Assembly (NCBI GenBank): GCA_015058045.1
Contig: SVDC01000023.1
Span: 1 to 60,439, forward strand
Direction of reading: 5' to 3'
From: Cellulosilyticum sp.
GTDB lineage: Bacteria; Bacillota; Clostridia; Lachnospirales; Cellulosilyticaceae
Length of the DNA: 60,439 nucleotides
The translations under genes were made by a program, and so were the position numbers. The notes beneath the pieces are model-generated. The model was not told where the DNA came from, made no database searches, and saw only the letters and a program-made list of their open reading frames with translations. Position 1 is the first letter of the stretch. Each line of letters begins with the position of its first letter. Shown here in pieces: positions 1,138 through 23,669 of the stretch.

Positions 1138-1200
1138 GCAAATTCTGATTTATCAAGTTACAAAACATCTAGTTTATTATTATTTTGTTGTTTTATGATA
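1138..1200 (-). repeat. HNH-tail repeat, decayed copy (copy 0)
   Basis: The minus strand keeps TTTTGTAACTTG and ATAAATCAGAATTTGCAGGAG-like ends of the cassette repeat, with the middle deleted. The adjoining stretch (ttattattttgttgttttat) also occurs at 3968-3990, in front of the stop of the 4017-4547 gene. Confidence 0.45.
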
Positions 1201-1201
1201 T

Positions 1202-1450
1202 TTAAGATTCCGTTTTGTATTCTCTTACATATCTCTCTTGCTTTGATTTAACACCATTAAATTTCCCACTCTTTACATTAAATCCATCAGCAGGAACAAA
1301 TAAAGGAGCATATCCAGCTCTCCATATTTCAGCAGCCTTTTCAGGCAACTCAGGATTTGAACCACCTGGTATCATTATAACATCTGACTCTTCTAATATA
1401 TCTTCTACAAAAATGAAATTTGATATATCTTCAATTATTCGCATATTCAT
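1202..1450 (-). pseudogene. YdcF/DUF218-like N-terminal fragment
   Basis: The 82-residue frame contains VIMIPGGSNPELPEKAAEIW and then a second basic patch. This matches the start of DUF218 (YdcF-like) proteins, where a glycine-rich GG motif is followed by a helix with A-x-x-Y. The family is usually 160-250 residues, so only the N-terminal third remains. The first codons run on in frame from the upstream HNH-tail repeat, which here lacks its stop. It is probably a decayed cassette; the family assignment is moderate. Confidence 0.45.
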
Positions 1451-1452
1451 AA

Positions 1453-1558
1453 GAAATCCACCTTACTACTATCTCCCATCTGCAAATTACATACCCTACA
1501 AAGCACAGCTAGATTATCCAACTAAGTAAGTTGTAGTTAATGGATAAACTGAAATTTG
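1453..1558 (-). repeat. HNH-tail cassette repeat, copy 1
   Basis: On the minus strand the tail motif CAGTTTATCCATTAAC leads into GTTGGATAAT and then HNH codons reading LAVLCRVCNLQMGDSSKVD. The usual stop has been replaced, so the frame continues into the YdcF-like fragment. Confidence 0.85.
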
Positions 1559-1564
1559 TTATCC

Positions 1565-2313
1565 CTACTTAAAAAACAAACCAATGAGTTGTCTGACTCG
1601 TTTTGTATCATGCTCATTAAGTCTGCAAACTGCATTTACATACACAGCTTTCATAAAGATATCCTCAGAATACCCTTCTATAGCTAGAACCTGCTTCATA
1701 TATCTACTCTTTAATCCGGCAGCATATTCATAAAAAATCACATAAGTACGCGCATAATCCCATATTGGTTTGCCATTTTTTGCATTAACCCAGTCAATAA
1801 TTCGGATATCATCACCTTCATACATAACATTTAAAGTGTGATAATCCATATGACAAAGGGCTTCGTCCTCGAGAACTTCCTTCTCCACATCTACACAACA
1901 TTGTTTTGCATATAATTTCTGTTCTTCTGTGACAGGGGCAACATCTATTTGCTCGCATAAATGCTTAGAAACACTATGGAGTGTAAGACCTTTTACTTCA
2001 TGTATTTTTTTAAACCATGCTAGAAAATCAGTCATAACAGCATCTTTACCAACCACATCAAATCTTTCAAACATGGAGATACCGGAAATTAAATCCATCT
2101 TTATCGTGTTAGGAAATTCAGATTCATAATATCGGGAACTGGAAGCTCACATTTACAGACTTCATTCTGCTGATTGTATTCATAATCAATCCATTCTTTT
2201 GGATAACCTTCATTGAAACATTTATAAGCATATTCATTCCATGAATAAACCTTTGCCACCATTCCTGCTCCGATTTCAATCCTCTCATTAATAAACGCAT
2301 CAAATACACTCAT
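1565..2313 (-). pseudogene. Aminoglycoside/choline phosphotransferase-like gene, frameshifted
   Basis: Two overlapping minus-strand frames make one kinase. The first (2313 to 2101) holds the N-lobe with IGAGMVAKVYSWNEYAYKCF and ELPVPDI. The second (2098 to 1565) starts MDLISGISMFERF and has the catalytic loop CHMDYHTLNVMY and the metal-binding IIDWVNAKNG. The frames differ by one base, so a small indel near 2125 breaks the gene. Brenner-type H-x-D-x-x-x-x-N and D-W motifs identify the APH fold; the original substrate is unknown. It sits between repeat copies 1 and 2 as one cassette. Confidence 0.8.
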
Positions 2314-2331
2314 TCAATTTTTTCCTCCTGC

Positions 2332-2451
2332 TAATTCTAATTTACCAATCCACCTCACTACTATCGCCAATCTACAAATTACACACCCCGAATAATACAG
2401 CTACATTCTCCAACTAGATGAGTTTCAGCTGATAGGCTAACTGAAAATTTT
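2332..2451 (-). repeat. HNH-tail cassette repeat, copy 2
   Basis: It carries the tail motif, then HNH codons reading VAVLFGVCNL-stop-IGDSSEVDW-stop, then TAAATTAGAATTAG and a GGAGG ribosome binding site for the phosphotransferase cassette. The internal stop shows this copy has drifted. Confidence 0.85.
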
Positions 2452-2452
2452 A

Positions 2453-2758
2453 TCATTCCTTGCTATAATCAGAATGAAGAATAACTTCTTTTCCTTTACT
2501 TTTAGCATACTCTATCTCTTTTGAAACCTGATTACCAATATATCCTTGGATATCAACAACATAAATCGCGTCTGAAAGTTCAATTTTCCTAAAATGTGCC
2601 TTTTCAAGAGATACTAGCTCTTTCTCAGAAATCTCCAAGTCATCCACATTATAAACGCATTGTAAAACATTGAAATCATGTTTTGTCTCTAGCAGAAATG
2701 CTATTTCTTGCATTTCTTTCTCAAATTTCATGCTTCCACATATTGTAACTGTCTTCAT
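2453..2758 (-). CDS. Nucleoside 2-deoxyribosyltransferase-like protein
   Basis: This 101-residue protein starts MKTVTICGSMKF and has HFRKIELSDAIYVVDIQGYIG and a conserved Glu in SKEIEYAKSKGK. These match the small Rossmann-like fold of the nucleoside 2-deoxyribosyltransferase/DUF4406 group (start V-x-I-C-G-S, then S-D-A-I-x-V). Members cleave N-glycosidic bonds or bind nucleotides; the reaction here is not shown. A GAGG ribosome binding site lies just after repeat copy 3, so it is a one-gene cassette. Confidence 0.7.
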   Translation of the reverse strand: MKTVTICGSMKFEKEMQEIAFLLETKHDFNVLQCVYNVDDLEISEKELVSLEKAHFRKIELSDAIYVVDIQGYIGNQVSKEIEYAKSKGKEVILHSDYSKE

Positions 2759-2770
2759 CTTTTACCTCGT

Positions 2771-2890
2771 TAAATTCTAATTTACCAATCTTTTATACTC
2801 TTATCCCCAATCTGCAAGTTACACACTCTACAAAGCACCGCAATATTATCCGATTAGGTAAATTTCAACTAATAGATAAACTGGAATTTG
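2771..2890 (-). repeat. HNH-tail cassette repeat, copy 3
   Basis: This is one of the best-preserved copies. The tail (CAGTTTATCTATTAG, loop, CCTAATCGGATAAT) is followed by HNH codons AVLCRVCNLQIGDKSIKDW-stop and then GGTAAATTAGAATTT. The DKSIKDW ending differs from the DSSVVDW type but matches copy 13. Confidence 0.9.
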
Positions 2891-2902
2891 TACTTGGTTT
2901 AA

Positions 2903-3451
2903 TTAACGCTTTATGTCAAAAAATCTTACCACTTTTGCAAAATTATCCTCTATTTTATCTCCTCCATTTAAATGTAGAATCTTACACGAAAGTAGCTTTT
3001 GCCATTCATCATGCTTCATCTTACTTCTTATATCTATTCCGCCTGTGTCATAAGTTTTTGCCCATCCAATAAAATCAATGTAATTTTGGTACATATCCCC
3101 ACCAGGTTCAATACGTGAACCAAAGTGTTCTTTTTCTCTGTGCTTCAATCTTTCAATTCGCAGTGTCTGTTCTGTTTCAATTCGTATAGCTAAGGTGAAA
3201 TAAGGAATCAACACATCTCCCCAATCTGTAAGAGAGCCAGATATTACAACATTCGCTGATTTGTCAATATCTCTTTTCATTAGCTTTATTCGTTCCTCAG
3301 TAGGGCGCTTGTATGTGAATTTTGGATCTGTAGGCAACCAAAAATAATCGTCTGTATCCATAAGTGTATATCCTAATTCTTCGCATATCTTTTTGCCTAA
3401 CGTTGTAGTACCAGAGCCTGATGCACCAAAAATATGAATTACATTTTTCAT
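2903..3451 (-). CDS. AAA-type small kinase-like protein with lysine-less P-loop (cassette gene)
   Basis: This 182-residue protein begins MKNVIHIFGASGSGTTTLG. The loop at residues 9-17 has the Walker A spacing, but Thr stands where the phosphate-binding Lys is expected. A D-T-D-D-Y-F-W acidic stretch follows at about residues 32-38. As far as I recall, a GASGSGTTT loop also occurs in related small Firmicute proteins, so this may be a family trait, not damage. It follows a complete-length HNH remnant and is the first cassette of the left array. Confidence 0.7.
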   Translation of the reverse strand: MKNVIHIFGASGSGTTTLGKKICEELGYTLMDTDDYFWLPTDPKFTYKRPTEERIKLMKRDIDKSANVVISGSLTDWGDVLIPYFTLAIRIETEQTLRIERLKHREKEHFGSRIEPGGDMYQNYIDFIGWAKTYDTGGIDIRSKMKHDEWQKLLSCKILHLNGGDKIEDNFAKVVRFFDIKR

Positions 3452-3465: not shown

Positions 3466-3758
3466 TAAATTCTAATTTACCAATCTACCACACTGCTATC
3501 TCCTATCTGCCAGTTACATATCTTACATAACACAGCAATATTATCTTCATCTAATCTCAACTCAAGCTAATCCTTAAATGACTTTATATTATGACCTTGT
3601 AAATTCTCAGTAGTAATGATTTTCCACTTACTCCAACACCTCTCACAATAAGGATATTCTTTTACTTTCCTATTCGTAATTTCTGCCAAGCATATGATGA
3701 GTAAAATTTACGTTTCTCAGGTTCGATTGTTTTGCCACATTTACTGGTATTTTTTCAT
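3466..3758 (-). pseudogene. HNH endonuclease remnant carrying repeat copy 4
   Basis: Reading leftward from an ATG at 3758, nearly the whole HNH gene is recognisable (YAWQKL-, EYPYCERCWSKWKIIT, LQGHNIKSFKD, IAVLCKICNWQIGDSSVVDW-stop), but the 5' part has small deletions and shifts. The intact relative is at 23331-23669. The 3' end passes straight into TAAATTAGAATTTA and the ribosome binding site of the 2903-3451 gene. Confidence 0.85.
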
Positions 3759-4916: not shown

Positions 4917-5594
4917 TTATTGAATTAGTCCCCCATGATAAAAACACTCATAGACTTTTAAATCTCCATAAAAAATTTCTTCTTTTCCTTGAAACCATTT
5001 AAACTCTCCGTCAACTGTATTATGATAAATATAATTGCCTTCTTGGTATATTTTAGGCCCTCTAAAAGGTATTTCATCTGGCCTTAATAATAAAGCTTTT
5101 TTTAGAAAATCTCCTGAAAACTGCTCTTGAAGTGTCCTGCCACAGTAATTCATTGACCATATAGGGATGTCATCTTTAAATACTACTTCTTCACCCGAAA
5201 AAGCATTGCCACCCACATATGTATCTATATACTTTAAATTTCCTTTTTCGTATATAAAATCATGTGAGTTAGGCCTACACTGTTTTTCCGATTCCTTGCC
5301 TTTTCCTGCATAGGAGTTAGCACTTGCTTGTTTTAAAAAATCAATTACCTCACCAACAGCAATATTTCTTTTTACAAATTCTTTACTCGTACATCCCTTG
5401 TCTATTTTCACCAAACTATCAATTGTAACACAGAATAGCTCACTGAGCTGTATGAGTTTATCAATATCAGGAAACGTTTCTCCTGACTCCCATTTTGCCA
5501 CAGCTTGTCTTGAAACACCCAAGTAATCTGCTATATTTTCTTGAGACATTCTTGATTTATTTCGTTCTATTTTCAATTTTTTATTAAATTCCAC
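4917..5594 (-). CDS. XRE-family regulator with DUF5680-like C-terminal domain
   Basis: Residues 1-60 form a helix-turn-helix (SQENIADYLGVSRQAVAKWE) typical of XRE regulators. The rest (about 80-225) is a compact domain with DFLKQASANSYAGKG, GGNAFSGEEVV and PIWSMNYCGR, the layout of DUF5680 proteins. A GTG start at 5594 is preferred because TTGAGGTG lies six bases upstream; an ATG thirty bases earlier has none. Targets are unknown. It lacks an HNH-tail repeat, so it may be an older resident or have lost its boundary. Confidence 0.75.
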   Translation of the reverse strand: MEFNKKLKIERNKSRMSQENIADYLGVSRQAVAKWESGETFPDIDKLIQLSELFCVTIDSLVKIDKGCTSKEFVKRNIAVGEVIDFLKQASANSYAGKGKESEKQCRPNSHDFIYEKGNLKYIDTYVGGNAFSGEEVVFKDDIPIWSMNYCGRTLQEQFSGDFLKKALLLRPDEIPFRGPKIYQEGNYIYHNTVDGEFKWFQGKEEIFYGDLKVYECFYHGGLIQ

Positions 5595-5754
5595 ATTTAT
5601 CACCTCAAGAATATTATATCGCATAATATCATATTATCCATTAACTGTTCATTGTCTATTTGTCAACCTATAGTTGCATTAGATAAAATTTCTTATCGTT
5701 ACTTTTTCTCCATCATTTTAAACTCATTCTAGCTCTCTTATATATCATCGTTGC

Positions 5755-6779: not shown

Positions 6780-6985
6780 ATAAATTCTAATTTACCAATC
6801 TATCATACTACTATCAACTATCTGCAAATTACATACTCTACAAAGCACAGCCACACTATCAGATGAAATGTTTCTGTTATATGTATTGTTAGCTCTGCAA
6901 GTAAAAGTTCAGTTATATTCGATTGTTTGCTCACATTTACTGCAATCTTACGTATATTTAACCCTTTATATATCCCGATTCTAAT
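6780..6985 (-). repeat. HNH-tail repeat copy 5 joined to an HNH 5' remnant
   Basis: Minus-strand codons VAVLCRVCNLQIVDSSMIDW-stop and the TAAATTAGAATTTA end are present. Immediately upstream the sequence jumps to the HNH N-terminal part (zinc-ribbon CSKCG region and YNRNI-like codons) with the centre deleted. This is an internal deletion derivative of a full HNH gene. Confidence 0.8.
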
Positions 6986-7088: not shown

Positions 7089-7373
7089 ATGGCAACTAAA
7101 CAAACTCGCTACGATGAAGATTTTAAGAAATCCATCGTTGCACTTTATCACAATGGCAAAACTCAGACTTCACTTTCTCAAGAATATGACATTTCTTTGA
7201 CTTCTCTGGCCAAATGGATTAAACAATATTCAACTGTCGAAACAGATGACGGTGAAATCTTAACTGCTAAACAGATTAAAGAAATGCAGAAAAGAATGGC
7301 TCAGCTCGAGGAAGAAAACCTGATATTAAAAAAAGCGATTGCCATATTCACGCCACACTCACACAACGGCTAG
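7089..7373 (+). CDS. IS3-family transposase OrfA
   Basis: The 94-residue protein has a helix-turn-helix of the Tnp_1 type (TSLSQEYDISLTSLAKWIKQY) and a C-terminal leucine-zipper stretch (MQKRMAQLEEENLILKKA). GGAGG lies eight bases before the ATG. At 7328-7335 AAAAAAAG occurs in the last codons. Slipping back one base there joins OrfA to the OrfB frame, the usual way the OrfAB transposase is made in this family. Confidence 0.85.
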   Translation: MATKQTRYDEDFKKSIVALYHNGKTQTSLSQEYDISLTSLAKWIKQYSTVETDDGEILTAKQIKEMQKRMAQLEEENLILKKAIAIFTPHSHNG

Positions 7374-7423
7374 ATGCTGTTTATAAACTACGTTTTCAGC
7401 ATGATATTAAAACACTTTGCCGC

Positions 7424-8230
7424 GTGCTAAAAGTAAATCGTAGCACTTATTATAAGCACTTCAACTCTGAGCCTGCTCCTAGAGTGAAGGAAAATCTAGA
7501 TATTAAACGTATCATTCTTCAAATTTATTCTGACTATGATAAATGTCTTGGTGCTTATAAGATCACATATCTCCTTAGTCGTGATTATGGTATAAACATC
7601 AGCGTCGGACGAGTGTACCGACTGATGCAATCAATGTCTCTACCTAAAATGTCTACCGATAAACCTCGCAGAACTAAGCATCATGATCAGGGAGATTGCG
7701 ATAATCACCTCCATCAGGAATTTAATCAAAAGGCTCCAAATCTGGTTTGGGCTAGTGATTTTACTTACATAAAAGTTAATAGTAAATGGTACTATCTTTG
7801 CATTGTTATGGATTTATTTTCAAGAAAGATTATTGGCTGGCACATTGCTGCCAATCATAACGTTGAATTAACGATGTCAGCATTTAATAAGGCCTATAAA
7901 AGCCGTCATGTTCAGTATGGACTTATATTTCATTCTGACCAAGGATCTGAATATACTGCTTTTGCTTTTAGAAATCTCTTAGATTCTTGTAATGTTGTAC
8001 AGTCATTTTCTAAAAAGGGATACCCTTTTGATAATGCTTGTTGTGAAAGCTTTTTTTAATATCTAAAGAAAAATCGTACCAATCGAAGAACCTATCATAC
8101 CCTAGATGAACTTCGACTGGATATTTTTGAGTACATTGAAAATCTATATAACAACCGACTCCCTCATGGTGCGATTGGATATAAAACTCCAAATGAGTTA
8201 GAAGCTGAATATTGGGATCAACATGCATAA
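7424..8230 (+). pseudogene. IS3-family transposase OrfB with premature stop
   Basis: The rve/DDE integrase core is clear: WASDFTYIKV (first Asp), IFHSDQGSEY (second Asp) and CCESFF (Glu). A TAA at 8057-8059 stands where the family normally has a Lys codon right after ESFF. The frame then continues for 56 codons (YLKKNRTNRRTYHTLDEL to YWDQHA). A single base change therefore removes the C-terminus, and the element is probably inactive unless helped in trans. Confidence 0.85.
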
Positions 8231-8779: not shown

Positions 8780-8837
8780 AACACCACCTCAAAACAACCA
8801 GTATTTACATGCTAAAATATTATTCTGAATATTTAAA

Positions 8838-8945: not shown

Positions 8946-9058
8946 CACTATTTAGTTTGAGGCATAGATGTATTTTGTACTTTTTTAAGCTGTTTTTCTT
9001 TACGCTGAATATGGTATAGTCACCACAATAAGCAAAAATTGTTAGTGGATAATTCATC

Positions 9059-15624: not shown

Positions 15625-16113
15625 TCACATATTATTACTTAACAATTCTTTATAATATACATCATTTTCTTCATCATACTGAAAATTCGCTGCTAATAAA
15701 GTGTTTCTTGAAATTTGATTCTTACTATCAGGCTGTACAATAATCTTCTTTGCATCTGTATTAGCCTTTACTTCTTCTGCTAAAGCAAAAACTATTCCTG
15801 TACCAAAACCTTTTCCAAGATATTTTTCTTCACCTATCATGTAGTCAATACTATATGCCTCTTTCACATCTGCTCTATTGTGCCAAGTCTCACCACTTAA
15901 CGCATAATCATAATATTGACAAAATCCAATTGCTACACCTTCAACTTCTACAATAAAATGATGCAACCAATTAAATTCATCATTTCGTTTTTCAATTTCA
16001 TAAATCCAATCATCTGGCTCTGTATACCATTGGGCAACATGCTCTTTATTTAACCATTGTTTAAATAAACTCAAGTCTTGATCCTTAAATGCTCTCAATT
16101 TTACTTTGTTCAT
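15625..16113 (-). CDS. GNAT acetyltransferase, AAC(6')-like
   Basis: The 162-residue protein begins MNKVKLRAFKDQDLSLFKQW and has HVAQWYTEPDDW, FIVEVEGVAIGFCQYYDY, IDYMIGEEKYLGKGFGTGIV (acetyl-CoA binding, Q/R-x-x-G-x-G variant) and IIVQPDSKNQISR. This is the layout of AAC(6')-I-type and related Acetyltransf_8 enzymes. Resistance activity is not shown. It lies between the putative cos block and TerS, the only cargo gene on that side, and no HNH-tail repeat precedes it. Confidence 0.75.
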   Translation of the reverse strand: MNKVKLRAFKDQDLSLFKQWLNKEHVAQWYTEPDDWIYEIEKRNDEFNWLHHFIVEVEGVAIGFCQYYDYALSGETWHNRADVKEAYSIDYMIGEEKYLGKGFGTGIVFALAEEVKANTDAKKIIVQPDSKNQISRNTLLAANFQYDEENDVYYKELLSNNM

Positions 16114-16230
16114 CTTATATTCCTTTCATCAAGTAATTTTGTTTTGTTAGGGTATACTATTTACCCATCACTAATGTATTTATTTCCTTTATATGTATTT
16201 TTTCATTTTAGGTATTTTCTGTCTCTTGTT

Positions 16231-16263
16231 GGAGTCACGTGGTCTTGAGTATAAGTTTGTATT
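16231..16263. promoter_or_regulatory. Putative packaging (cos) site, copy A
   Basis: TCACGTGGTCTTGAGTATAA and TTTGT match, with few changes, a block in front of the other TerS at 20967-21000. The block contains the CACGTG palindrome and does not code for protein in either copy. Its position between cargo and TerS fits a cos or terminase-binding site; this is inference. Confidence 0.45.
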
Positions 16264-16293
16264 ATAGTTTGTTTATTAGTGGGCTTTCTAAAA

Positions 16294-16650
16294 TCAAAAT
16301 AGTGAATCTAGATATTCTATTAGTTCTGCCCCTTGATTTGTATCATAAACGTAATAGTTACAAATTTTTTCTCCATTGGAATAGTGTAATCGTAATACAT
16401 AATGTAAAGACATCCCTTCTGAACTAATGCTTTTGTAATTATCGTCATTAAATGTAATTATAGAAATAATTTGATTTACTTCATTAGGAACTTCATTAGA
16501 TTTTAAAATAAGCTCTTCATCTGTATTATAATTTTCTACAATAATTATTCCTGTCTCTGAAACAGTAGGAGTTCTATTAATATATTTAAATACTAATAAT
16601 ATAGCAATGAGAATTGCTATTCCACTACCAAATACTAGCTTTTTCCTCAA
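16294..16650 (-). CDS. Membrane-anchored small protein of unknown function
   Basis: The 118-residue protein has an N-terminal membrane anchor (VFGSGIAILIAILLVFKYI) and a small extracytoplasmic domain ending EGMSLHYVLRLHYSNGEKIC, DTNQGAELIEYLDSLF. I do not recognise the family for certain. The start is a TTG at 16650, with GGAGG ten bases upstream. It follows the 52-residue gene without a repeat between them, so both may form one cassette. Confidence 0.6.
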   Translation of the reverse strand: MRKKLVFGSGIAILIAILLVFKYINRTPTVSETGIIIVENYNTDEELILKSNEVPNEVNQIISIITFNDDNYKSISSEGMSLHYVLRLHYSNGEKICNYYVYDTNQGAELIEYLDSLF

Positions 16651-16707
16651 TTATTTTATTCCTCCAATTTGTATATCTAATATATTATATTGACAACTAC
16701 AATATAT

Positions 16708-16866
16708 TTATTGATTATTCTTCTTTATGTATATCTTTAGTGCTTTAATTCCTAATATGCATAAATAAATCATTAGTATTGTTAAACCAACTGATATAAC
16801 TGTTGAACCTATTTGTAATCCTATAAGTGCATTATTATTAAAACCTATAATTTGACCTGATTCCAT
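16708..16866 (-). CDS. 52-residue single-pass membrane protein
   Basis: AAGGAG lies nine bases before the ATG. The product MESGQIIGFNNNALIGLQIG continues into a hydrophobic helix (STVISVGLTILMIYLCILGI) and a basic tail ending KKNNQ. No family is recognised. It starts right after repeat copy 7 and is probably the first gene of that cassette. Confidence 0.6.
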   Translation of the reverse strand: MESGQIIGFNNNALIGLQIGSTVISVGLTILMIYLCILGIKALKIYIKKNNQ

Positions 16867-16895
16867 ATACCATTCTCCTTATTAACAATAATTTC

Positions 16896-16938
16896 AAATT
16901 ACCCATCCACCATACTATTATCTCCAATCTGCAAGTTA
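16896..16938 (-). repeat. HNH-tail repeat, copy 7 (3' half only)
   Basis: Minus-strand codons NLQIGDNSMVDG-stop and AATTTGAAATTATT remain. The upstream half is replaced by the last codons of the 16936-17424 gene, whose stop overlaps AACTTGCAG. The junction thus lies inside the HNH CNLQ codons, unlike the other copies. Confidence 0.75.
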
Positions 16939-17424
16939 GTTGGTATCATCATTATTTAAGCTTTTTTGTCCAAATATAATAAATACATAAGGCATTAAAT
17001 CTTGAATAAAACTTCCTAACCAAAAATTTCCTGTTATCATAAATATAAGTTGAGAGCTCCCCCCACTCCATTCATATATTCTTGATATATATAGAGAGAT
17101 AATACCAAACACTCCGGTAGCTCCACCCATTAGCCATTGTATTAAGCTTATTATCACCTGAAATACAACAATAACTGTAGCTGAAAAAAATATTTCTTTT
17201 TTTGTCATTTTACGAAATAAGCCTATTCCTCCTATTAAAACAGTAGCAACAAAAATTCCTCCATACACTATCAATGTTCTTGTATTATCAGTTGTGATTG
17301 TACCATCAGCTCCTGTAGCTATCATAAAACGTCCAAATATATAAAGAATTAAGTAAAAAGACACTATCCCTGCAATAATACAATATAAGGGAACTCTCCA
17401 TAAACAATTCCTGCTACTATTCAA
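16936..17424 (-). CDS. Four-helix membrane protein of unknown function
   Basis: The 162-residue protein has membrane segments near residues 12-35, 50-66, 80-97 and 135-155, with a glycine-rich loop (GGATGVFGIISLYISRIYEW). No family is recognised. Its last codons are fused to the truncated repeat copy 7, so the C-terminus may have been trimmed. Start by an AAAAGGGGG-type site upstream of ATG 17424. Confidence 0.6.
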   Translation of the reverse strand: MNSSRNCLWRVPLYCIIAGIVSFYLILYIFGRFMIATGADGTITTDNTRTLIVYGGIFVATVLIGGIGLFRKMTKKEIFFSATVIVVFQVIISLIQWLMGGATGVFGIISLYISRIYEWSGGSSQLIFMITGNFWLGSFIQDLMPYVFIIFGQKSLNNDDTN

Positions 17425-17454
17425 AATCCCACCCCCTTTTAATTTTCAGTACAC

Positions 17455-17572
17455 ATCTTCTATTTTACCAATCCACCACACTACTATCACCCATCTGCAA
17501 GTTACACACTCTACAAAGCACAGCTACATTACTTAACTAGGTAAGTTTCAGCTAATAGATTTGCTTTAACTT
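17455..17572 (-). repeat. HNH-tail cassette repeat, copy 8
   Basis: HNH codons NVAVLCRVCNLQMGDSSVVDW-stop are intact; the tail reads ATCTATTAGCTGAAACTTACCTAG with the far end altered. Confidence 0.85.
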
Positions 17573-17591
17573 CTATATTTTGCAATTATTA

Positions 17592-17795
17592 TCACTCATT
17601 TTGTTTAAGCTTATTACGGATTAAGAAGCAAACGACTGCTGGTAATAAAAACTCCAATACTCTGTCTAAAAAGAGTGGCATTCTCGTATTATATGGACTA
17701 AAATTGCTAATTTCATAGCTCATTACAACAAAATAAATAATAACTAGTACTACACCAATTATCAGCAACAACTTTCTTATTGCTTTAACTTTCAT
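17592..17795 (-). CDS. 67-residue two-helix membrane protein
   Basis: The product has hydrophobic stretches LLLIIGVVLVIIYFVVM and LEFLLPAVVCFLI separated by a short polar loop, and a basic C-terminus. No family is recognised. It lies between repeat copies 8 and 9 as a one-gene cassette. AGGT lies upstream of the ATG at 17795. Confidence 0.6.
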   Translation of the reverse strand: MKVKAIRKLLLIIGVVLVIIYFVVMSYEISNFSPYNTRMPLFLDRVLEFLLPAVVCFLIRNKLKQNE

Positions 17796-17805
17796 CTTTT
17801 TACCT

Positions 17806-17897
17806 CATCAAGTTATATTCTACCAATCCACCCTACTACTATCTCCAATCTGCAAGTTACACACTCTACAAAGTACTGCCACTCTATAAAGGACTAT
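17806..17897 (-). repeat. HNH-tail cassette repeat, copy 9 (tail truncated)
   Basis: HNH codons VAVLCRVCNLQIGDSSRVDW-stop are intact. The hairpin tail on the upstream side is missing: the match stops just beyond the VAV codons. Confidence 0.8.
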
Positions 17898-17917
17898 CAC
17901 AGCTTGTTTTGCATTTG

Positions 17918-18379
17918 CTAATACTTTCTTTTTATATATTTAATTGCCTCTTTAGCCATCAAATAAATATCATCTAATAATTCATTCTTAATATCATCAA
18001 GCTCACTTTCAGAATACCATTTTAATATATTAGATTCTTCTTTCCCTGGAAACAACTTATTAGACTCACTTTCTGCATAAAAGACAAAGTCAATATGCTC
18101 ATGTCCTTGCTCAATCTCACCTAATACCATATGCATTGGATTAATTAGCATCTTTTCTCTTTCAGTATCTACATATTTATCTCTTAAAGTATTCAGGTCA
18201 TGTAATTTTACGCTAATCCCTGCTTCCTCAAAAGCTTCCCTTACAGCCGCTTCTTCTGGCAGTTCATTTTCTTCTATATGTCCTCCAACTGGTAATAATA
18301 TTTCTGCCTTTTTATGTTTATGAAGTAATACCTTATTCTTATGTACTATATAAACTGATACAGTATAATGTCTGTCCAT
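17918..18379 (-). CDS. Nudix hydrolase (cassette gene)
   Basis: The 153-residue protein carries a complete Nudix box, GGHIEENELPEEAAVREAFEEAG (shown here in two parts: GGHIEENELPEEAAV and REAFEEAG) near residues 32-54. The Glu residues bind Mg and the enzyme should hydrolyse a nucleoside diphosphate derivative. The C-terminal KWYSESELDDIKNELL is usual for the 8-oxo-dGTPase/ADP-ribose groups, but substrate is open. It follows repeat copy 10. Confidence 0.85.
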   Translation of the reverse strand: MDRHYTVSVYIVHKNKVLLHKHKKAEILLPVGGHIEENELPEEAAVREAFEEAGISVKLHDLNTLRDKYVDTEREKMLINPMHMVLGEIEQGHEHIDFVFYAESESNKLFPGKEESNILKWYSESELDDIKNELLDDIYLMAKEAIKYIKRKY

Positions 18380-18403
18380 TAGTACTTCCCCTTCTTCGTT
18401 GTT

Positions 18404-18509
18404 CTATTTCCAGTCAACTACACTACTATCTCCCACCTGCAAATTACACACTCTACAAAATACAGCCACATTATCCAAGGTGTCCAAATATCAACTAAAC
18501 AGAAATTGC
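18404..18509 (-). repeat. HNH-tail cassette repeat, copy 10
   Basis: HNH codons VAVFCRVCNLQVGDSSVVDW are followed by N-R-stop; the tail is divergent (CTGTTTAGTTGATATTTGG) but begins with GCAATTTC like the others. Confidence 0.8.
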
Positions 18510-18908
18510 TTACTTATGGTGATATATTTCCATTTGTCCAGAAAGCATTGTAAAGAATCCAAACTTTTCATAATAACTCCTAAGGCTTTCTTCACCATAG
18601 ATAACAGATATCATATAGATACCTTTCTCTTTTATTTTATTGATTGCCATATTCATCAACTTCGTCCCTATTCCTTGGTTTTGATAATTAGGGTGCACTA
18701 TAACATCTTGAATATATGCATCCGTCACCCCATTGCTAACTACAGATAGAAAACCTATAAGTTGATTTTCTTCATAACAGCTAATTCTAAAATCATCCTT
18801 CAACAAAGGATTACATAGTTCATTATCCATTCTATTCCATCCAACAGATTGTCTTAAATCACTAATATCTTTAGGCTTAATACAATTGTTTATTTTGAAA
18901 TCAAACAT
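18510..18908 (-). CDS. GNAT-family acetyltransferase (cassette gene)
   Basis: The 132-residue protein has the GNAT core: AYIQDVIVHPNYQNQGIGTK (motif A, Q-x-x-G-I-G) and SYYEKFGFF near the end. It should transfer an acetyl group from acetyl-CoA; the acceptor is unknown. The ATG at 18908 is set by GGAGG eight bases upstream. A longer in-frame start at 19007 would add 33 residues, which are only the HNH-tail repeat read in another frame. It is the first cassette after the HNH copy at 19272. Confidence 0.85.
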   Translation of the reverse strand: MFDFKINNCIKPKDISDLRQSVGWNRMDNELCNPLLKDDFRISCYEENQLIGFLSVVSNGVTDAYIQDVIVHPNYQNQGIGTKLMNMAINKIKEKGIYMISVIYGEESLRSYYEKFGFFTMLSGQMEIYHHK

Positions 18909-18933
18909 ACATTTCTCCTCCATAAGTTCAAAC

Positions 18934-19272
18934 CTACCAATCCCTCTCACTACTATCTCCAATCTGCAAATTACACACTCTACAAAGCACAGCCACATTA
19001 TCCTCATCTAATCTCAGCTCTGGATAATCTTTAAACGACTTTATATGATGACCTTGTAAATTCTCAGTAGTGATAATCTTCTACTTACTCCAACATCTCT
19101 CACAACAAGGATGTTCTTTAACTTTTCTATTCCTTAACTTCTGCCATGCATATGATGAGTAAAATTTACGTTTCTCAAGTGAAATATTTCTCTTGTATAA
19201 AGTGCTTGTCCCACAAGTACAATTGCTACTATATTCAATTGTTTTGCCACATTTACTACAAACCTTTTTCAT
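18934..19272 (-). pseudogene. HNH endonuclease with premature stop, carrying repeat copy 11
   Basis: Full-length match to the intact HNH at 23331-23669 (zinc-ribbon KVCSKCGKTIEY, FYSSYAWQKL, HPCCERCWSK). TAG replaces the Trp after CWSK at 19081-19083. The frame continues to LQGHHIKSFKDYPELRLDED and NVAVLCRVCNLQIGDSSERDW-stop at 18934. The 3' end runs directly into the GNAT cassette's GGAGG. Confidence 0.85.
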
Positions 19273-19320
19273 ATGTAATCCTTGATATAAACATCATGTC
19301 TATCTTATAGTTTATTCAGC

Positions 19321-19455
19321 TTATTGAATATTAGCTATAAGTTTTCCTAATAAGTAACATACGTTATATACTGCAAATACGATAATTGTAAGTTTTAGAA
19401 TAAACTATTCAAAGTTGCTACATTTATTTTTAACCTTATCTAATACATTGTTCAT
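19321..19455 (-). pseudogene. Small prophage membrane protein with in-frame stop
   Basis: GAGGAGGG lies six bases before ATG 19455. The frame MNNVLDKVKNKCSNFE-stop-FILKLTIIVFAVYNVCYLL ends at 19321. One membrane helix is predicted after the nonsense codon. Nothing else is seen in 19273-19594 except the hairpin at 19549. Confidence 0.5.
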
Positions 19456-19548
19456 AATTAACCCTCCTCACGCTCTTCAATCCTACTATTCTAAATATTA
19501 TAACAAATATATTTAATATTTCCAATATTATAATTTTAATCCATAAAA

Positions 19549-19580
19549 ATCACCCCCAACCATTATGATTGAGGGTTTAA
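19549..19580 (-). terminator. Hairpin after the small prophage gene
   Basis: CACCCCCAACC and a partly matching GATTGAGGGT form a stem just after the stop of the 19595-19792 gene. Related hairpins follow the other two copies of this gene end. Confidence 0.5.
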
Positions 19581-19594
19581 ATAGGGAGCGTTAT

Positions 19595-19792
19595 TTAACT
19601 GATTTTAGCGATGTTATCGTTGTAGTGCTTACCCTCATATTGTTCTCTTAGAAGTTCTGAACGCATTTTATATAACTCACTTAACTCCACTATAGCTACA
19701 TCTAGCTCTTTAATCTTCTCTACCAGTTGATCCATCTCAACTTTTATTTGCATCGTTTGTTTATCAATATTATTTACTTTTTTATTTGCCAT
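19595..19792 (-). CDS. Small coiled-coil prophage protein
   Basis: The 65 residues form an amphipathic helix (QIKVEMDQLVEKIKELDVAI, VELSELYKMRSELLREQYEG) and end HYNDNIAKIS. No family is recognised; the size and position upstream of HNH suggest a late-region phage protein. Its last codons and hairpin recur at 8838 and 24190, next to the other HNH loci. Confidence 0.6.
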   Translation of the reverse strand: MANKKVNNIDKQTMQIKVEMDQLVEKIKELDVAIVELSELYKMRSELLREQYEGKHYNDNIAKIS

Positions 19793-19833
19793 TTTCTTTA
19801 CCTCTTTTTATCCTTAATAAACTACTATAACGA

Positions 19834-20310
19834 TTAATATAATTCTTCATATACAATCTTTGCTTGATCTCTTGTATTGGCACACAAATAGAATTCTGAA
19901 TACTTTGGTTCTAGTAGCATTAGAATAATCATCACAATTCCGCTTCCACACGATTTGCTATTCTTACGCGCCAACCATAATAAGCATACTTCATATCTTC
20001 TTTTTTCAGGCTTATCTTTTCGCTTCCAACAGAAAATATTGAGTATAAAAAAATACTGATAACCTACACAAGCCTCGTATAAAGATTGGCCTGCTACAGC
20101 ACCAGTAGCGAAATTAATTAACTTCATAATATTAATAATTTTATCTGCTGTTTCATAATCGAAATAATAAAGAAGCTCCTCCTGATGGCCTATTTCATAA
20201 AGGAACTTCCTGCATATTGCTTTTATATATTTATTTGTTGGGAATCTACCATCCAATACATCTATTGCATACTGGTAGGCTTTTGATTCTTTAAACCTTT
20301 CGTGATTCAT
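19834..20310 (-). pseudogene. Terminase large subunit, N-terminal third (copy B)
   Basis: The 158 residues MNHERFKESKAYQYAIDVLD to NTRDQAKIVYEELY are the start of a P27/HK97-type TerL, normally 500-580 residues. The P-loop region reads ARKNSKSCG. The frame ends in TAA right at the deletion joint, and the small gene of the next prophage copy begins 40 bases on. The start overlaps the TerS stop. Confidence 0.75.
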
Positions 20311-20777
20311 TAATCATTACCTCTGATAATAGATAGCAATGGATCAACCTTTTCTGCTTCTGCATTAGCATTAATATTTGCCAACTTCGCCCTAGCTTGT
20401 GGACTTAAGCATAATTCATTGCAAATCCTAAAAAACTCGCTCATATACCCACTTTTTATTTTAACTTGAGGATTAATATTTCCTTCATCATCTACAAGTC
20501 CTGTTTCATTAATAATTTTCTCACATTCCTGTACACGATTAATTGTAACAGCTGCTTGGGCTACAATATGAACATCAATATTGCCAAGCAAACCTGCTGG
20601 CATTAGATGATCAACCAAACCTTTAAATATCTTTTTCTGAGGCAATGTCAAAAAAGAAGGTGGTCTGATTTTATCAGCATCTCCTCTGAGCTTTGCTTCA
20701 TATTCTAGCCTTGTATCGATATCTTTTTTACTCATATGACCAGTTCTTGTCGCAACACTTTTCGTAGGTCTTGCCAT
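20310..20777 (-). CDS. Phage terminase small subunit, P27 family (copy B)
   Basis: The intact 155-residue protein has MARPTKSVATRTGHMSKKDI, KIRPPSFLTLPQKKIFKGLVD and the C-terminal helix FFRICNELCLSPQARAKLA. P27-type TerS binds the packaging site and directs TerL. GGAGG lies eight bases before the ATG. TerL is truncated and no virion genes follow in this copy, so the protein has no working partner here. Confidence 0.85.
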   Translation of the reverse strand: MARPTKSVATRTGHMSKKDIDTRLEYEAKLRGDADKIRPPSFLTLPQKKIFKGLVDHLMPAGLLGNIDVHIVAQAAVTINRVQECEKIINETGLVDDEGNINPQVKIKSGYMSEFFRICNELCLSPQARAKLANINANAEAEKVDPLLSIIRGND

Positions 20778-20834
20778 TCTTTTTACCTCCTTGTCTTACA
20801 TTTTTTCATTAGAAATTATATGTTTTTGCATTAA

Positions 20835-20884
20835 AAAAGAGCCTTTTTGATAGCTTTTTAAGTCACCATCAATTGGCTCTATGT
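20835..20884 (-). terminator. Probable rho-independent terminator
   Basis: On the minus strand AGAGCC and GGCTCT, with inner TTGATG/TATCAA pairing, are followed by TTTTTT. It lies between the putative cos site and TerS. Confidence 0.55.
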
Positions 20885-20966
20885 ACTGAAAACTCTAGGT
20901 TTCTTTTATTAACCACACCCTACACCTGCAAAAAATCCGCATTACAGGCGTTTTGATTAAATGTTT

Positions 20967-21000
20967 GGGGGCACGTGATCTTGAGTATAAATTTGTGTTT
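20967..21000. promoter_or_regulatory. Putative packaging (cos) site, copy B
   Basis: GCACGTGATCTTGAGTATAA followed by ATTTGTGTTT matches 16231-16263. The adjacent 20915-20966 is less AT-rich (CACACCCTACACCTGC, CGCATTACAGGCG), as cos regions often are. It separates the last cassette (HD hydrolase) from TerS. The cos role is inferred from position and conservation only. Confidence 0.45.
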
Positions 21001-21048
21001 AAGTTTAAATAGTAGGGGGATATCTCCTTTAACAGTACAAACGAAAAA

Positions 21049-22065
21049 TTAGATTAATCGTGAAACACCACAAATCCAATCATTCTGACTTGTTTTTAGG
21101 AAATCTTCTAGCATTTCTTTAAAAGCATAATCCATCTCTGATATCCGACCATTTCCAAAGACCAATGGATCGATATATCTTTTCTTGGTCTTAATGGTTC
21201 GCCTACACTCTATAGGAGCCGTTTCATCATAAACCATATCATATAGATTTCTAAAGTTCCTCCAACTGATATTCAAACTTTTATCATTTTCGAGTTTATC
21301 AATAATTTCTTTTTCACTCAGCATAAAATCACTTTCTATCAAAACTCCTCTTTGAATTGCCACTTCCAAAAGTTCTGAGAGAATCTGCATTGCGTACCTA
21401 TCTTCATCCGATATATATACTTTGGAACATCTTAATGCATCTTTTGCAAATTGTTGAGCAATCGTTCTATCTTGAAAGCACAATTCTGGTTGCCCATCTT
21501 CCGCCTCACCAACTATAAGATTATCATAATATTGCTTAATAGTATTATAATCACTAAACCCATATCTCCACAAATTTCCCATTGTGTATTCCAACCTGTC
21601 TGCAGAAATCCTTGGAGAATTGTTATCAGCAATAGGATACATATGATAATCCTTTACTGCATCTATAGAAATGTTCATAGTATTTAACAGCTGACTAATC
21701 TCAAAACTATCACTAATAATCTTTTCTGTAGCATTCTCTGTGAACTCCTGCAGCATATAGTCATTATGTAGAAAATCGATAGTATGAGCAAACGTTGGTG
21801 TAGCAATATCATGAAATAATGCCGCTAGTGTTTGGATAGTATCTGAAGTAAAATGCCAAACAATTAAAGCAGTACCTAAACTATGCTGAAATCTAGAATA
21901 CTTCTGTAAATTTCTAAAAAGTGGAAAGTCTGTATATTCACATCCACAATTCATTCCTATGTGTTTTAATCTCTGCATTTGAATGGTATTTAAAAAAGGG
22001 ATTAAAAATTCAGGAACCTCTTTATGATAAATACTAATTTCAAAATCATCTTTTCTAATATACAT
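21049..22065 (-). CDS. HD-domain phosphohydrolase (dGTPase-like)
   Basis: The 338-residue protein has RFQHSLGTALIVWHF (first His) and TLAALFHDIATPTFAHTID (HD pair and a further His), then SADRLEYTMGN (last Asp). This is the HD fold of the dGTPase/SAMHD1-like group, with R-x-x-H-S-L-G as in those enzymes. It may degrade dNTPs or another phosphoester; the substrate is not shown. GGAGG precedes the ATG. It follows repeat copy 12 and is the last cassette before the putative cos site. Nucleotide-depleting HD enzymes can be anti-phage, but that is speculation. Confidence 0.75.
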   Translation of the reverse strand: MYIRKDDFEISIYHKEVPEFLIPFLNTIQMQRLKHIGMNCGCEYTDFPLFRNLQKYSRFQHSLGTALIVWHFTSDTIQTLAALFHDIATPTFAHTIDFLHNDYMLQEFTENATEKIISDSFEISQLLNTMNISIDAVKDYHMYPIADNNSPRISADRLEYTMGNLWRYGFSDYNTIKQYYDNLIVGEAEDGQPELCFQDRTIAQQFAKDALRCSKVYISDEDRYAMQILSELLEVAIQRGVLIESDFMLSEKEIIDKLENDKSLNISWRNFRNLYDMVYDETAPIECRRTIKTKKRYIDPLVFGNGRISEMDYAFKEMLEDFLKTSQNDWICGVSRLI

Positions 22066-22078
22066 TTATTTTCCTCCA

Positions 22079-22242
22079 CAATTTCTAATTTACCAATCCA
22101 CCACACTACTATTGCCTATCTGCAAATTACACACCCTACAAAGCACAGCCACATTATCTAATTATTAATCTTTCCGTTGATTAAAAATAGATAAATTGGA
22201 ATTTATAAAGCTCTCTACATAGATAAATTAGAATTTATAAAG
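22079..22242 (-). repeat. HNH-tail cassette repeat, copy 12, with duplicated end
   Basis: HNH codons NVAVLCRVCNLQIGNSSVVDW-stop are intact. The upstream end carries AGATAAATTGGAATTTATAA and, 32 bases on, a near copy of it. The second copy overlaps the 3' end of the 22235-22936 gene. Confidence 0.8.
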
Positions 22243-22936
22243 CGTTCCAAATAAAGCAAAAAGCAAATACACATCCCCATGCATTTCCTGTTTTCTTTCT
22301 TATTATCAACATTCCATAAATCGCAATGAAAGTTGTAATGATTTCAAGAATTCCCCAAAATGAAGTGCTAAATGGATGGAACACTATACAGACAATCGCA
22401 CAGGTTATAGCGCCATAATCCAACCATTGTTTTTTTGTAGGATACCTTCTGTTGATTTTCTCGCAAATTACAACATAGTTAAAGCCTTCAAAAAATCCCC
22501 ACACAACAACAATAAGAGCCATTCCTAATATTGAAAAAGGAATACCACTTGCTATCACATCATCAGTAATCATAATGCTAAAAGGCTGATAATTATTGAA
22601 TTTTCCTGAAGCAAAAATATAGCAGATATGGGGAAGAAAACTAATAACAGTACCAACAATCGATTTGCCTAAGTTTTTTTTCATCAATCCAAACTGTATA
22701 AATTTCTCTTTTCTTAAAATGCAAACAATAGTAATTCCTAATCCAGCAATTCCAAATTGGATGCTAGCAATAAGTAACAGTCGTGGAATGACTGAAATAT
22801 GACTGTCCCTAACAAAACTCATTAATTGATTTCCCTTTGTCGCATAGAAAAGAAAAACACCTAAAGTAATGATTGAAATAATCCAAATATCTGCTTCTAA
22901 TCGTTTTTGTTCAATGGTAAGTTGCTTTTTTTCCAT
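22235..22936 (-). CDS. Polytopic membrane protein, possibly CPBP-like
   Basis: The 233-residue protein has about six to seven membrane helices, an inner-loop FGLMKKNLGKSI and a conserved-looking VWGFFEGFNYVVICEKINRR. The overall plan (helices with E-G-F-N-Y in mid-protein) recalls CPBP-type intramembrane proteases, but the E-E-x-x-x-R motif is not present. Function unknown. It is a one-gene cassette between repeat copies 12 and 13. Confidence 0.6.
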   Translation of the reverse strand: MEKKQLTIEQKRLEADIWIISIITLGVFLFYATKGNQLMSFVRDSHISVIPRLLLIASIQFGIAGLGITIVCILRKEKFIQFGLMKKNLGKSIVGTVISFLPHICYIFASGKFNNYQPFSIMITDDVIASGIPFSILGMALIVVVWGFFEGFNYVVICEKINRRYPTKKQWLDYGAITCAIVCIVFHPFSTSFWGILEIITTFIAIYGMLIIRKKTGNAWGCVFAFCFIWNAL

Positions 22937-22951
22937 GTTATTATCACCTCA

Positions 22952-23076
22952 TTAAATTCTAATTTACCAGTCCTTTATGCTCTTATCTCCCACCTGCAAG
23001 TTGCACACCCTACAAAGCACAGCTACATTATCTAACTAGATAAGTTTCAACTAATAGATAAACTGGAAGTTGTCTC
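22952..23076 (-). repeat. HNH-tail cassette repeat, copy 13
   Basis: The best-preserved unit: tail CAGTTTATCTATTAG, loop TTGAAACTTAT, CTAGTTAGATAAT, then HNH codons VAVLCRVCNLQVGDKSIKDW-stop and GGTAAATTAGAATTTA. The ending KSIKDW matches copy 3, about 20 kb away. Confidence 0.9.
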
Positions 23077-23090
23077 TCAGCTCAGATTCA

Positions 23091-23303
23091 TTAAATTTTT
23101 ATTGGTTTCATATTGAATCTTTTACGAATTTTTCTACCCAATTTATGAAGCTCTTTTTCTTGTTGCTCTGTCAATTCAGGAACACGCTCCCATAAAATAC
23201 GAATAACTGTTTCAGCTTCCGCTTCTGTCTTTATTGAGTCGAATATTTGCTCTGTGCTTATTAAAAGTTCTTCTGTCCTACAAGTTAATAATACATTATA
23301 CAT
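23091..23303 (-). CDS. Small hypothetical protein, first cassette after the intact HNH
   Basis: The 70 residues are charged and helical (EQIFDSIKTEAEAETVIRIL, LTEQQEKELHKLGRKIRKRF) with a basic C-terminus ending MKPIKI. No signal peptide or membrane segment. Not recognised. GGAGG precedes the ATG at 23303, directly after the HNH stop and the TAAATTAGAATTTA end. Confidence 0.6.
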   Translation of the reverse strand: MYNVLLTCRTEELLISTEQIFDSIKTEAEAETVIRILWERVPELTEQQEKELHKLGRKIRKRFNMKPIKI

Positions 23304-23330
23304 ATTATTTCATCCTCCATAAATTCTAAT

Positions 23331-23669
23331 TTACCAATCCACCACCCTACTATCACCAATCTGTAAGTTACACACTCTACAAAGTACAGCCACATTATCC
23401 TCATCCAATCTTAACTCAGGATAATCCTTAAATGACTTTATATGATGACCTTGCAAATTCTCAGTAATAATGATCTTCCACTTACTCCAACACCTCTCAC
23501 AATAAGGATGTTCTTCGACTTTTCTATTCCTTAATTTCTGCCAAGCATATGATAAGTAAAATTTACGTTTCTCAGGTATAATATTTCTGTTATATGTAAT
23601 ATTAGCTCTACAAGTACAAGCTTTGTTATATTCGACTGTCTTACCACATTTACTGCATATTTTCTTCAT
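23331..23669 (-). CDS. Phage HNH endonuclease, intact; source of the cassette repeat (copy 14)
   Basis: The 112-residue protein has a zinc-ribbon start (KKICSKCGKTVEY, CTC), FYLSYAWQKLRNRKV, HPYCERCWSKW, the catalytic LQGHHIKSFKDYPEL and NVAVLCRVCNLQIGDSRVVDW. HH and the later Asn fit the HNH fold, and C-x-x-C near the end binds zinc. Such HNH proteins beside terminase genes assist cos cleavage in some phages (known for HK97-type phages). The last 20 codons plus about 15 following bases are the unit that recurs in front of the cassette genes. Confidence 0.9.
   Translation of the reverse strand: MKKICSKCGKTVEYNKACTCRANITYNRNIIPEKRKFYLSYAWQKLRNRKVEEHPYCERCWSKWKIIITENLQGHHIKSFKDYPELRLDEDNVAVLCRVCNLQIGDSRVVDW

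Follow-up and report, generated by a model that had tools for sequence, protein, structure and literature searches.

The 60,439-nt stretch of DNA analysed here (the window; contig SVDC01000023.1 of a Cellulosilyticum sp.) contains arrays of single cargo genes parted by a repeated unit, which in most cassette units consists of a ~40-nt non-coding left arm and the final 22 codons of a phage HNH endonuclease gene. On balance, we consider that the arrays probably form a cos-adjacent accessory-gene (moron) locus, in which the HNH 3′ end serves as a homology linker for one-gene exchange with Sak4 as the probable mediator; a linker of this type, set in a phage accessory locus beside cos, accounts for most of the data.

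The repeat was located using a profile, R1, built from nine window units and using sequence only. R1 matched the window at 14 places at E ≤ 1, all on the minus strand (match starts: 23319, 22952, 22078, 18922, 18399, 17808, 17454, 16890, 9467, 6781, 3466, 2770, 2331 and 1445); nine of the 14 are the model-building units and are matched by construction. An earlier note on this DNA had described a unit repeated in one orientation, which holds for these 14 copies, and independent copies occur elsewhere (see below); its 15th place, a supposed relic at 1138, was not detected by R1 at E ≤ 1 in the window. By eye, the leader 3′ of a stop codon is the sole remaining part of that relic. In the source genome, where 150 of 913 candidates were scored, at least 17 passed E ≤ 0.01: 14 on the window's contig, two on contig C16 and one, which is weak, on contig C74. 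Array 1 comprises the following features (R1 denotes a profile match).

23331–23669, minus strand: intact phage HNH endonuclease gene, 112 aa (phrog_144 HNH, 5.6e-21); its last 22 codons are the linker tail
23319–23402, minus strand: unit copy, 3′ end of HNH gene (R1)
23091–23303, minus strand: cargo gene, 70 aa
22952–23073, minus strand: full unit, left arm and HNH tail, KSIKDW allele (R1)
22235–22936, minus strand: cargo gene, 233 aa, no family found
22078–22205, minus strand: full unit (R1); repeat family D17
21049–22065, minus strand: cargo gene, 338 aa, weak HD-domain match below cut-off
20962–21021, minus strand: cos-like conserved box, core motif 20967–20983
20310–20777, minus strand: terminase small subunit, P27 family
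19834–20310, minus strand: terminase large subunit, piece only

Positions 1–46 of the 47 of PF01844 align to window 23352–23501, which identifies the tail as the terminal part of the HNH domain. The unit is longer than the tail with which the earlier note equated it, most cassette units carrying the left arm as well. Between the 22078–22205 unit and the stop codon, the start of the left arm is present again as a 32-nt tandem copy; the gene at 21049–22065 is the last cargo before the cos-like box, and has no unit 3′ of it. Array 2 is arranged as follows.

18937–19272, minus strand: HNH gene with one in-frame TAG
18922–19029, minus strand: unit copy, 3′ end of HNH (R1)
18510–19007, minus strand: cargo gene, GNAT acetyltransferase (listed frame)
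18399–18508, minus strand: unit, left arm shortened (R1)
17918–18379, minus strand: cargo gene, NUDIX
17808–17896, minus strand: unit, different left arm (R1)
17592–17795, minus strand: cargo gene, 67 aa
17454–17573, minus strand: full unit (R1)
16936–17424, minus strand: cargo gene, 162 aa, no family found
16890–16939, minus strand: truncated unit, overlapping the end of the preceding gene (R1)
16708–16866, minus strand: cargo gene, 52 aa
16225–16285, minus strand: cos-like conserved box, core motif 16231–16247
15625–16113, minus strand: GNAT gene between cos-like box and terminase, a second variable slot

The listed start of the GNAT cargo at 18510–19007 lies inside HNH, and a start near 18909, past the leader, is more likely. 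A relative of the 52-aa gene in the same-genus genome G001 (L052, 8557–8757) is also located directly 3′ of a degenerate unit. The other units and cargo in the window are listed below.

10393–10575, minus strand: HNH N-terminal part, tail lost, methyltransferase gene directly 3′
9629–10396, minus strand: cargo gene, methyltransferase
9467–9584, minus strand: full unit (R1)
9059–9451, minus strand: cargo gene, cupin
6781–6879, minus strand: unit copy, end of internally deleted HNH gene (R1)
3466–3562, minus strand: unit copy, 3′ end of broken HNH gene (R1)
2903–3451, minus strand: cargo gene, P-loop kinase-like (AAA_18)
2770–2891, minus strand: full unit (R1)
2453–2758, minus strand: cargo gene, 101 aa, no family found
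2331–2450, minus strand: full unit, left arm starting 3 nt past stop codon (R1)
1565–2098, minus strand: cargo gene, APH phosphotransferase family
1445–1559, minus strand: unit, ending just short of the HNH stop (R1)
1131–1161, minus strand: relic, leader 3′ of stop codon only (by eye)

Three copies had been thought to belong to full-length or nearly full-length HNH genes; only that at 23331–23669 is intact, the 18922 copy having its TAG and that at 3466 being broken by a deletion, a frameshift and a stop. The copy at 6781 carries an internal deletion.

The left arm begins 1–45 nt 3′ of the preceding gene's stop codon in the eight window units measured, and overlaps that stop in both units of phage contig L033. 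Its mean difference is 0.217, compared to 0.373 at third codon positions (eight units, the set excluding units bearing other left arms), i.e. the arm is the more conserved, which homology alone is insufficient to explain. The unit alignment left out 16890, 1138 and the degenerate units of L052, L053, L054 and C74. The common left arm is present 3′ of several unrelated genes, and is lacking in the 17808 and L051 units. A search for its origin, by local alignment of six arms with six cos flanks and seven HNH stretches, was negative, with 17 of 300 shuffles equal in the best cases. By eye, the gene edges bear similar AT-rich near-palindromes, TAAATTAGAATTTA and AAATTYCAGTTTA.

An arm of this kind could reflect site-specific insertion at the HNH 3′ end in the style of SCC at rlmH, whereby a phage or host recombinase would recognise the left arm and tail and insert one-gene circles, each with a replacement HNH end. 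The conservation of the non-coding arm, the tight junctions with unrelated genes on either side, the retained reading frame of the tail and the array architecture are consistent with such insertion; however, none of the array proteins scanned was recognised as a recombinase, the integrase of the phage (25588–26505) is an ordinary XerC/D-like enzyme, units lacking the common left arm occur, and no fixed crossover base was found. Since the left edge also varies in position, from 1 to 45 nt past the stop codon, the odds of this explanation, which we consider unlikely, are slightly lowered.

A ribosome binding site lies directly 3′ of most units, as would be expected if the unit were a promoter or leader needed by each accessory gene. 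Such an expression linker is very unlikely, as promoter-like sites in 15000–24500 show no excess (61 found, 54.1 expected) and tail variation tracks codons rather than a promoter. Extremely unlikely is an integron, i.e. IntI acting on attC-like units, despite the one-way single-gene array and the similar cargo types. None of 25 genomes, control genomes included, reached the IntI cut-off (TIGR02249, 265 bits; phage contigs L032–L034 lie outside this set), the best scores being 85.5 bits in the source genome and 133 bits anywhere. No fold common to 11 units was found with RNA parameters on either strand (HNH strand, −4.05 kcal/mol with covariation −0.02; opposite strand, 0 pairs). Among 12 DNA folds (six units, two strands), 2, 8, 14 and 17 of 200 shuffles were equally stable in four cases and 39–152 in the other eight; three of the four best-folding cases belong to the non-HNH strand. 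The integron was rejected on the lack of an IntI over cut-off in the 25 genomes and of an attC-like hairpin common to the units. A search for known RNA elements in window 1–26600 gave no Rfam match at gathering threshold.

The cassette tails show HNH-like constraint although they are part of no HNH gene. Their pN/pS is 0.33 (13 cassette-unit tails), compared to 0.32 for eight HNH genes or recent HNH relics and 0.95–1.81 for wrong reading frames of the tail; these groups omit C16c and L051c, whose tails are incomplete because the copies end within them, and the internally deleted u6780H. For the eight units with the common left arm, the tail value of 0.31 was equalled in none of 1000 column-order permutations. 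Tails differ by ~21%, and are as similar between arrays (mean 13.9 of 66 differences, 212 pairs) as within them (14.0 of 66, 19 pairs). The tail nearest to the L033 HNH gene is that of the window unit at 2770–2891 (six of 66 differences), and a window cassette is likewise nearest to the L032 HNH gene, again with six. Because the constraint is HNH-like and similarity within and between arrays is equal, tails appear to have been exchanged repeatedly with working HNH genes, and recombination may pass through the HNH tail. Against this, a PHI-type test confined to the 66-nt tail, a short region, gave no significant sign of recombination (p 0.12–0.62).

The constraint bears on whether the units are passive debris, tandem prophages or co-integrates having left functionless HNH 3′ remnants between genes. 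The window does contain many broken HNH, TerS and TerL copies and an IS3 insertion, but neutral remnants should lose constraint, whereas the cassette tails hold pN/pS at 0.31–0.33; moreover, the same left arm recurs behind several unrelated genes and cassettes also occur in L033, whose HNH gene is intact, such that we regard debris as quite improbable.

Independent R1 matches were found in phage L033 (8.4e-29 and 2.5e-27), in Sporanaerobium (1.8e-17) and in G001 (5.8e-15). Four of 96 relatives were positive, the source genome included, and the same four, all of one family, were the positives among 392 genomes of the order, in a search whose strict filters recovered nine of the 17 source-genome matches. 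A scan of viral contigs with a left-arm 15-mer gave 67 stretches, one of which, L057, is the window's own DNA; when the other 66 and 12 HNH loci were put through R1, only L074 and L099 matched, and these two are the L042 and L033 contigs. When viral contigs were scanned with the tail pattern, L057 was the sole hit, and R1 matched only L034's own HNH end in that phage.

Unrelated single genes bordered by the unit beside HNH or HNH remnants occur in L033, L006, L050, L051 and L052, as the earlier note had anticipated for other genomes. Three phages of this kind besides the window's were compared (L032, L033 and L034). L032 and L033 align at 92.7% over L032 7104–8339; in each, the match stops at the HNH stop codon and picks up again within TerS, with unrelated genes in between and no unit between HNH stop and TerS in L032, compared to two in L033. 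The two phages differ also between L032 4763 and 7104. Cargo has thus been replaced between close relatives, which goes beyond tandem duplication of one locus. The proposal of a phage-borne cassette system is partly supported, in that unit-bounded cargo occurs in other phages and cargo is replaced between relatives; a wide spread across Clostridia is not supported (four of 392 genomes of the order), and, as no dedicated recombinase was found, a 'cassette system' in the integron sense is unproven.

Only one of 26 HNH loci, L033, repeats its own tail (1.1e-15 and 3e-10), the best value outside L033 being 0.003 over 27 bases. The loci were L032–L041, L043–L049 and L145–L153, of which several are near-duplicates and nine had a flank of at most ~1.5 kb initially; six were retested with larger flanks, and the L034 query was a longer C-terminus. 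This scarcity argues against an HNH-driven process, in which the endonuclease would nick or cut its own tail and the units, with the breaks repaired on other tails, as does the packaging role generally assumed for an HNH adjoining terminase. An HNH gene or remnant plus tail is the coding piece common to the arrays, and the reading frame of the tail is kept, as such a process would predict; nonetheless, we rate it as rather improbable. Gene capture, in which HNH or some recombinase would act on the 3′ end of the HNH gene and each captured gene would bring a new end for HNH, is doubtful; if true, the locus would resemble an integron whose attachment site proofreads itself, selection on the enzyme keeping the array sites functional.

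The setting of the arrays informs on the favoured reading, exchange through a homology linker. A conserved cos-like box, putatively cos from its position and conservation, lies between cargo and terminase at eight places, with its right half in a ninth. The cassettes are downstream of HNH and upstream of this box and the terminase, and variable genes lie between conserved genes beside the box, the arrangement of a hotspot. L033 encodes an exonuclease with a Sak4 domain and an SSB, and L034 encodes Sak4 and an SSB (the scan covered chosen proteins of these two phages, with L032 and the window outside it). In a scan for cargo with a defence role, the DUF2971 protein of L032 (8333–9325) matches PDC-S31 at 1.4e-38, any match at E ≤ 0.01 being found in two of ten proteins scanned.

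We propose that phages of one clostridial family would hold an accessory locus between the HNH gene and the cos-like packaging site, and that the window may represent a tandem series of decaying prophages. Copies of the HNH 3′ end, alone or after the left arm, would link one cargo gene to the next. An encounter of phage with prophage DNA would offer two stretches of homology, one in the linker and one on the cos/terminase side, and recombination could then add, remove or swap cargo, probably via the phages' exonuclease–Sak4–SSB functions, with Sak4 the likely agent. An incoming cassette may donate the end of the HNH gene, such that only tails leaving HNH intact would survive, which would explain why cassette tails stay coding-competent. 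PMC3945230 describes phage Rad52-like recombinases that recombine diverged DNA with defective prophages, and quotes a mean divergence of 17% for effective recombineering, which the ~21% tail divergence exceeds, counting against the homology reading. Also against it, annealing by Sak4 alone was weak in PMC5928155. For the P2/P4 cos-adjacent hotspots, Rousset et al. 2022 (PMC9122126) propose a mechanism using the cos end and homology.

One puzzle of phage biology is how accessory genes come to be acquired singly and with clean edges. In this locus, the cassette edge is visible, repeated and codon-constrained outside any gene, which speaks for many rounds of transit through functional HNH genes and offers a testable model of one-gene-at-a-time exchange. 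It also suggests a route to similar linkers, i.e. seeking gene ends that keep codon constraint where the gene itself is gone.

We found no paper describing this architecture in the open-access literature searched, although it resembles several known systems in part. Like integron cassettes, these are one-way arrays of unrelated single genes with a related ~120 bp spacer, but no IntI or shared fold was found and the spacer derives its sequence from within a gene that encodes a protein. SCC elements insert at the rlmH 3′ end and resupply that end, tandem copies being bounded by its repeats, and carry Ccr recombinases and many genes; the repeat here is similarly the 3′ end of a gene, HNH, with its reading frame kept, whereas the cassettes have one gene each and no recognised recombinase. 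T4-type PeSL, promoter and stem-loop linkers that aid single-gene shuffling, are likewise repeated linkers assisting such shuffling, although the linker here is coding sequence. The P2/P4 hotspots (PMC9122126) share variable accessory genes beside cos between conserved phage genes, but here single genes form arrays parted by a repeated piece of the flanking gene. Phage mosaicism through relaxed homologous recombination by Rad52-like recombinases or Sak4 (PMC3945230 and PMC5928155) has in common short diverged homology, defective-prophage donors and the Sak4 found in two phages here; in contrast, the homology in these arrays is a repeated linker travelling between cargo genes.

The window is one entire contig (C56, 60,439 bases) of a 4.16 Mb, 140-contig genome. 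Its left 24 kb holds several decaying prophage pieces, all on the minus strand, with two sets of terminase small- and large-subunit (TerS and TerL) pieces.

Features of the window
Near 23.3, 18.9, 10.5, 6.8 and 3.5 kb, minus strand: copies of a phage HNH endonuclease gene
20983 and 16247, minus strand: two cos-like boxes, lying between cargo and terminase
7089–8230: IS3-family element, orfA and orfB in separate frames, orfB broken by a stop; lies upstream of the 6.8 kb HNH copy, the one with an internal deletion
19547–19634, 24225–24301, 8822–8952 and 226–275: stretch repeated before the HNH-bearing pieces, terminator-like at 19552–19576; the copy at 226 suggests one further prophage piece past the contig end
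52733–53743: a further XerC/D-like tyrosine recombinase adjoining a formate/nitrite transporter gene
55753–59387, plus strand: three successive reading frames (388, 702 and 129 aa), the first two matching tyrosine recombinases, the third without a match; in size and order presumably like tnpA/tnpB/tnpC of Tn554 type

The cargo genes are separated by a repeated linker, the unit, which comprises, in sense order, a left arm, 66 nt, the HNH stop codon and a short AT-rich leader, which in most cases ends in the next gene's ribosome binding site. The left arm spans ~40 nt (approximate consensus AAATTYCAGTTTATCTATTAGYTGAAACTTAYCTAGTTG); the 66-nt tail makes up the end of the HNH domain and, within HNH genes, codes for DNVAVLCRVCNLQIGDSSVVDW. 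Unit copies at HNH genes have no left arm, the HNH coding sequence continuing into the tail. In eight window units measured, the arm starts 1, 3, 7, 13, 19, 19, 30 and 45 nt after the preceding stop codon, and in both units of the related phage contig L033 it overlaps the stop codon of the preceding gene. At window 22187–22250 the start of the arm occurs in a 32-nt tandem copy, the first copy overlapping the preceding gene's stop codon. A search of the window with R1, a profile of nine window units, returned 14 copies, nine of them its own building set; the repeat reported in the earlier note holds, as does its assignment to the HNH gene, with the number of intact HNH genes corrected.

Were the tails duplicated remnants, the 66 nt would be expected to vary irrespective of codons. 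They do not vary in this way: the tails of 13 cassette units give a pN of 0.155 and a pS of 0.468, a ratio of 0.33, alongside 0.32 for eight HNH genes or recent relics and 0.95–1.81 in the two other frames. The eight units with a common left arm give 0.31 (0 of 1000 column-order permutations were as low) and vary at 19/22 third, 9/22 first and 7/22 second positions. The arm they have in common points to a single origin of that arm, so one left arm has been joined to tails that evolved inside working HNH genes. Codon constraint may alternatively arise from translation of the 22 codons on their own, although the commonest left-arm type, inspected by eye, has an in-frame stop codon ahead of them. 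On average the tails differ at 14.0 of 66 positions within an array (19 pairs) and at 13.9 between arrays (212 pairs), the assignment of window units to arrays being ours (arrays 1 and 2 are the cassette rows behind the HNH copies near 23.3 and 18.9 kb). For two phage HNH genes, the closest tail lies in each case in a window cassette. This pattern argues for repeated exchange between HNH genes and cassettes, and against simple tandem duplication.

The cargo families include GNAT, NUDIX, APH, P-loop kinases, cupin and methyltransferase. Reading frames from 11 sources were compared all against all (E 1e-4). All but two of the rows touching the left 24 kb involved HNH, terminase, other phage genes or opposite-strand frames. 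The exceptions are a 52-aa gene with a relative at L052:8557–8757, each of the two standing behind a unit, and an HTH gene (4917–5624) with a partial match in L056. The window's cargo genes are thus not copies of each other. Between the cos-like box and TerS there is a second variable slot, occupied in array 2 by a GNAT gene (window 15625–16113), in L033 by an HNH-like gene and in L032, the sister contig of L033, by a gene of 296 aa; L138 and L139 have pre-box sequence in common, whereas their second-slot genes differ. This single-gene slot places accessory genes on both sides of the box.

The two sister phages differ in their cargo. Behind its intact HNH gene, L033 carries three genes of 131, 95 and 102 aa in that order, with a unit after each of the first two, and then the cos-like box, whereas L032 has a single DUF2971 gene behind HNH, ending within the box. 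They are 85.3% identical in the first 4.8 kb and, after a further difference between L032 4763 and 7104, 92.7% identical over L032 7104–8339; in both phages this alignment runs out at the stop codon of HNH, and similarity resumes within TerS at 88.5%. L042 (the same phage as L033) and L031 (the same DNA as the window) are not independent.

The unit was found in 4 of 392 genomes of the order: the window's own, two others of its genus (G001 and, by one weak match, G002) and Sporanaerobium hydrogeniformans from the window's family. G001, assembled as one contig of 4.7 Mb, contains three loci. L051 has two recognisable units; L052 and L053 each have two degenerate ones, in L052 together with an HNH end. 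In Sporanaerobium the HNH gene is broken and is accompanied by a single cargo gene and a single full unit; upstream of this HNH gene, 23 nt within hairpin-like sequence match the unit core (L006:9771–9800; E 0.12), which may be chance. Own-genome contig C16 holds an HNH remnant, a NUDIX-like gene (named by eye) and a unit fused to the box's right half. On own-genome contig C92, near 38635, a chromosomal gene that by eye resembles a sugar isomerase (L133:2130–2945) has a leader one mismatch from the cassette-leader pattern; the R1 search of L133 found no unit, and the gene might be a stray cassette or a chance likeness.

Since the HNH domain finishes in the tail, exchange through it alters how a working gene ends, and only functional HNH ends would last. 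Such exchange would use two homologies, the HNH tail on one side and cos/terminase on the other. L033 and L034, another related phage contig, code for Sak4 and SSB, and in L033 an exonuclease is fused to Sak4. Phage annealing proteins recombine diverged stretches with defective prophages (PMC3945230), and Sak4 anneals single strands, stimulated by its SSB (PMC5928155). A mechanism of cos end plus homology has been suggested for the cos-adjacent hotspots in P2 and P4 (PMC9122126). Three points count against a homology mechanism here: the crossover signal inside the 66-nt tail is not significant, tails diverge by ~21%, and the left arm is better conserved than third codon positions, which calls for some separate function of the arm.

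An integron was rejected: IntI was found at the cut-off in 0 of 25 genomes, where no control genome exceeded the cut-off either, and 11 units had no shared fold on the HNH strand or the other strand. Single-strand folds of six units were mostly no better than shuffles. The cassette idea of the earlier note survives in its anatomy and exchange and fails if read as a wide-spread integron-type system. The present locus is a phage accessory-gene locus, and what is new in it is a linker that comes from the neighbouring gene's own end.
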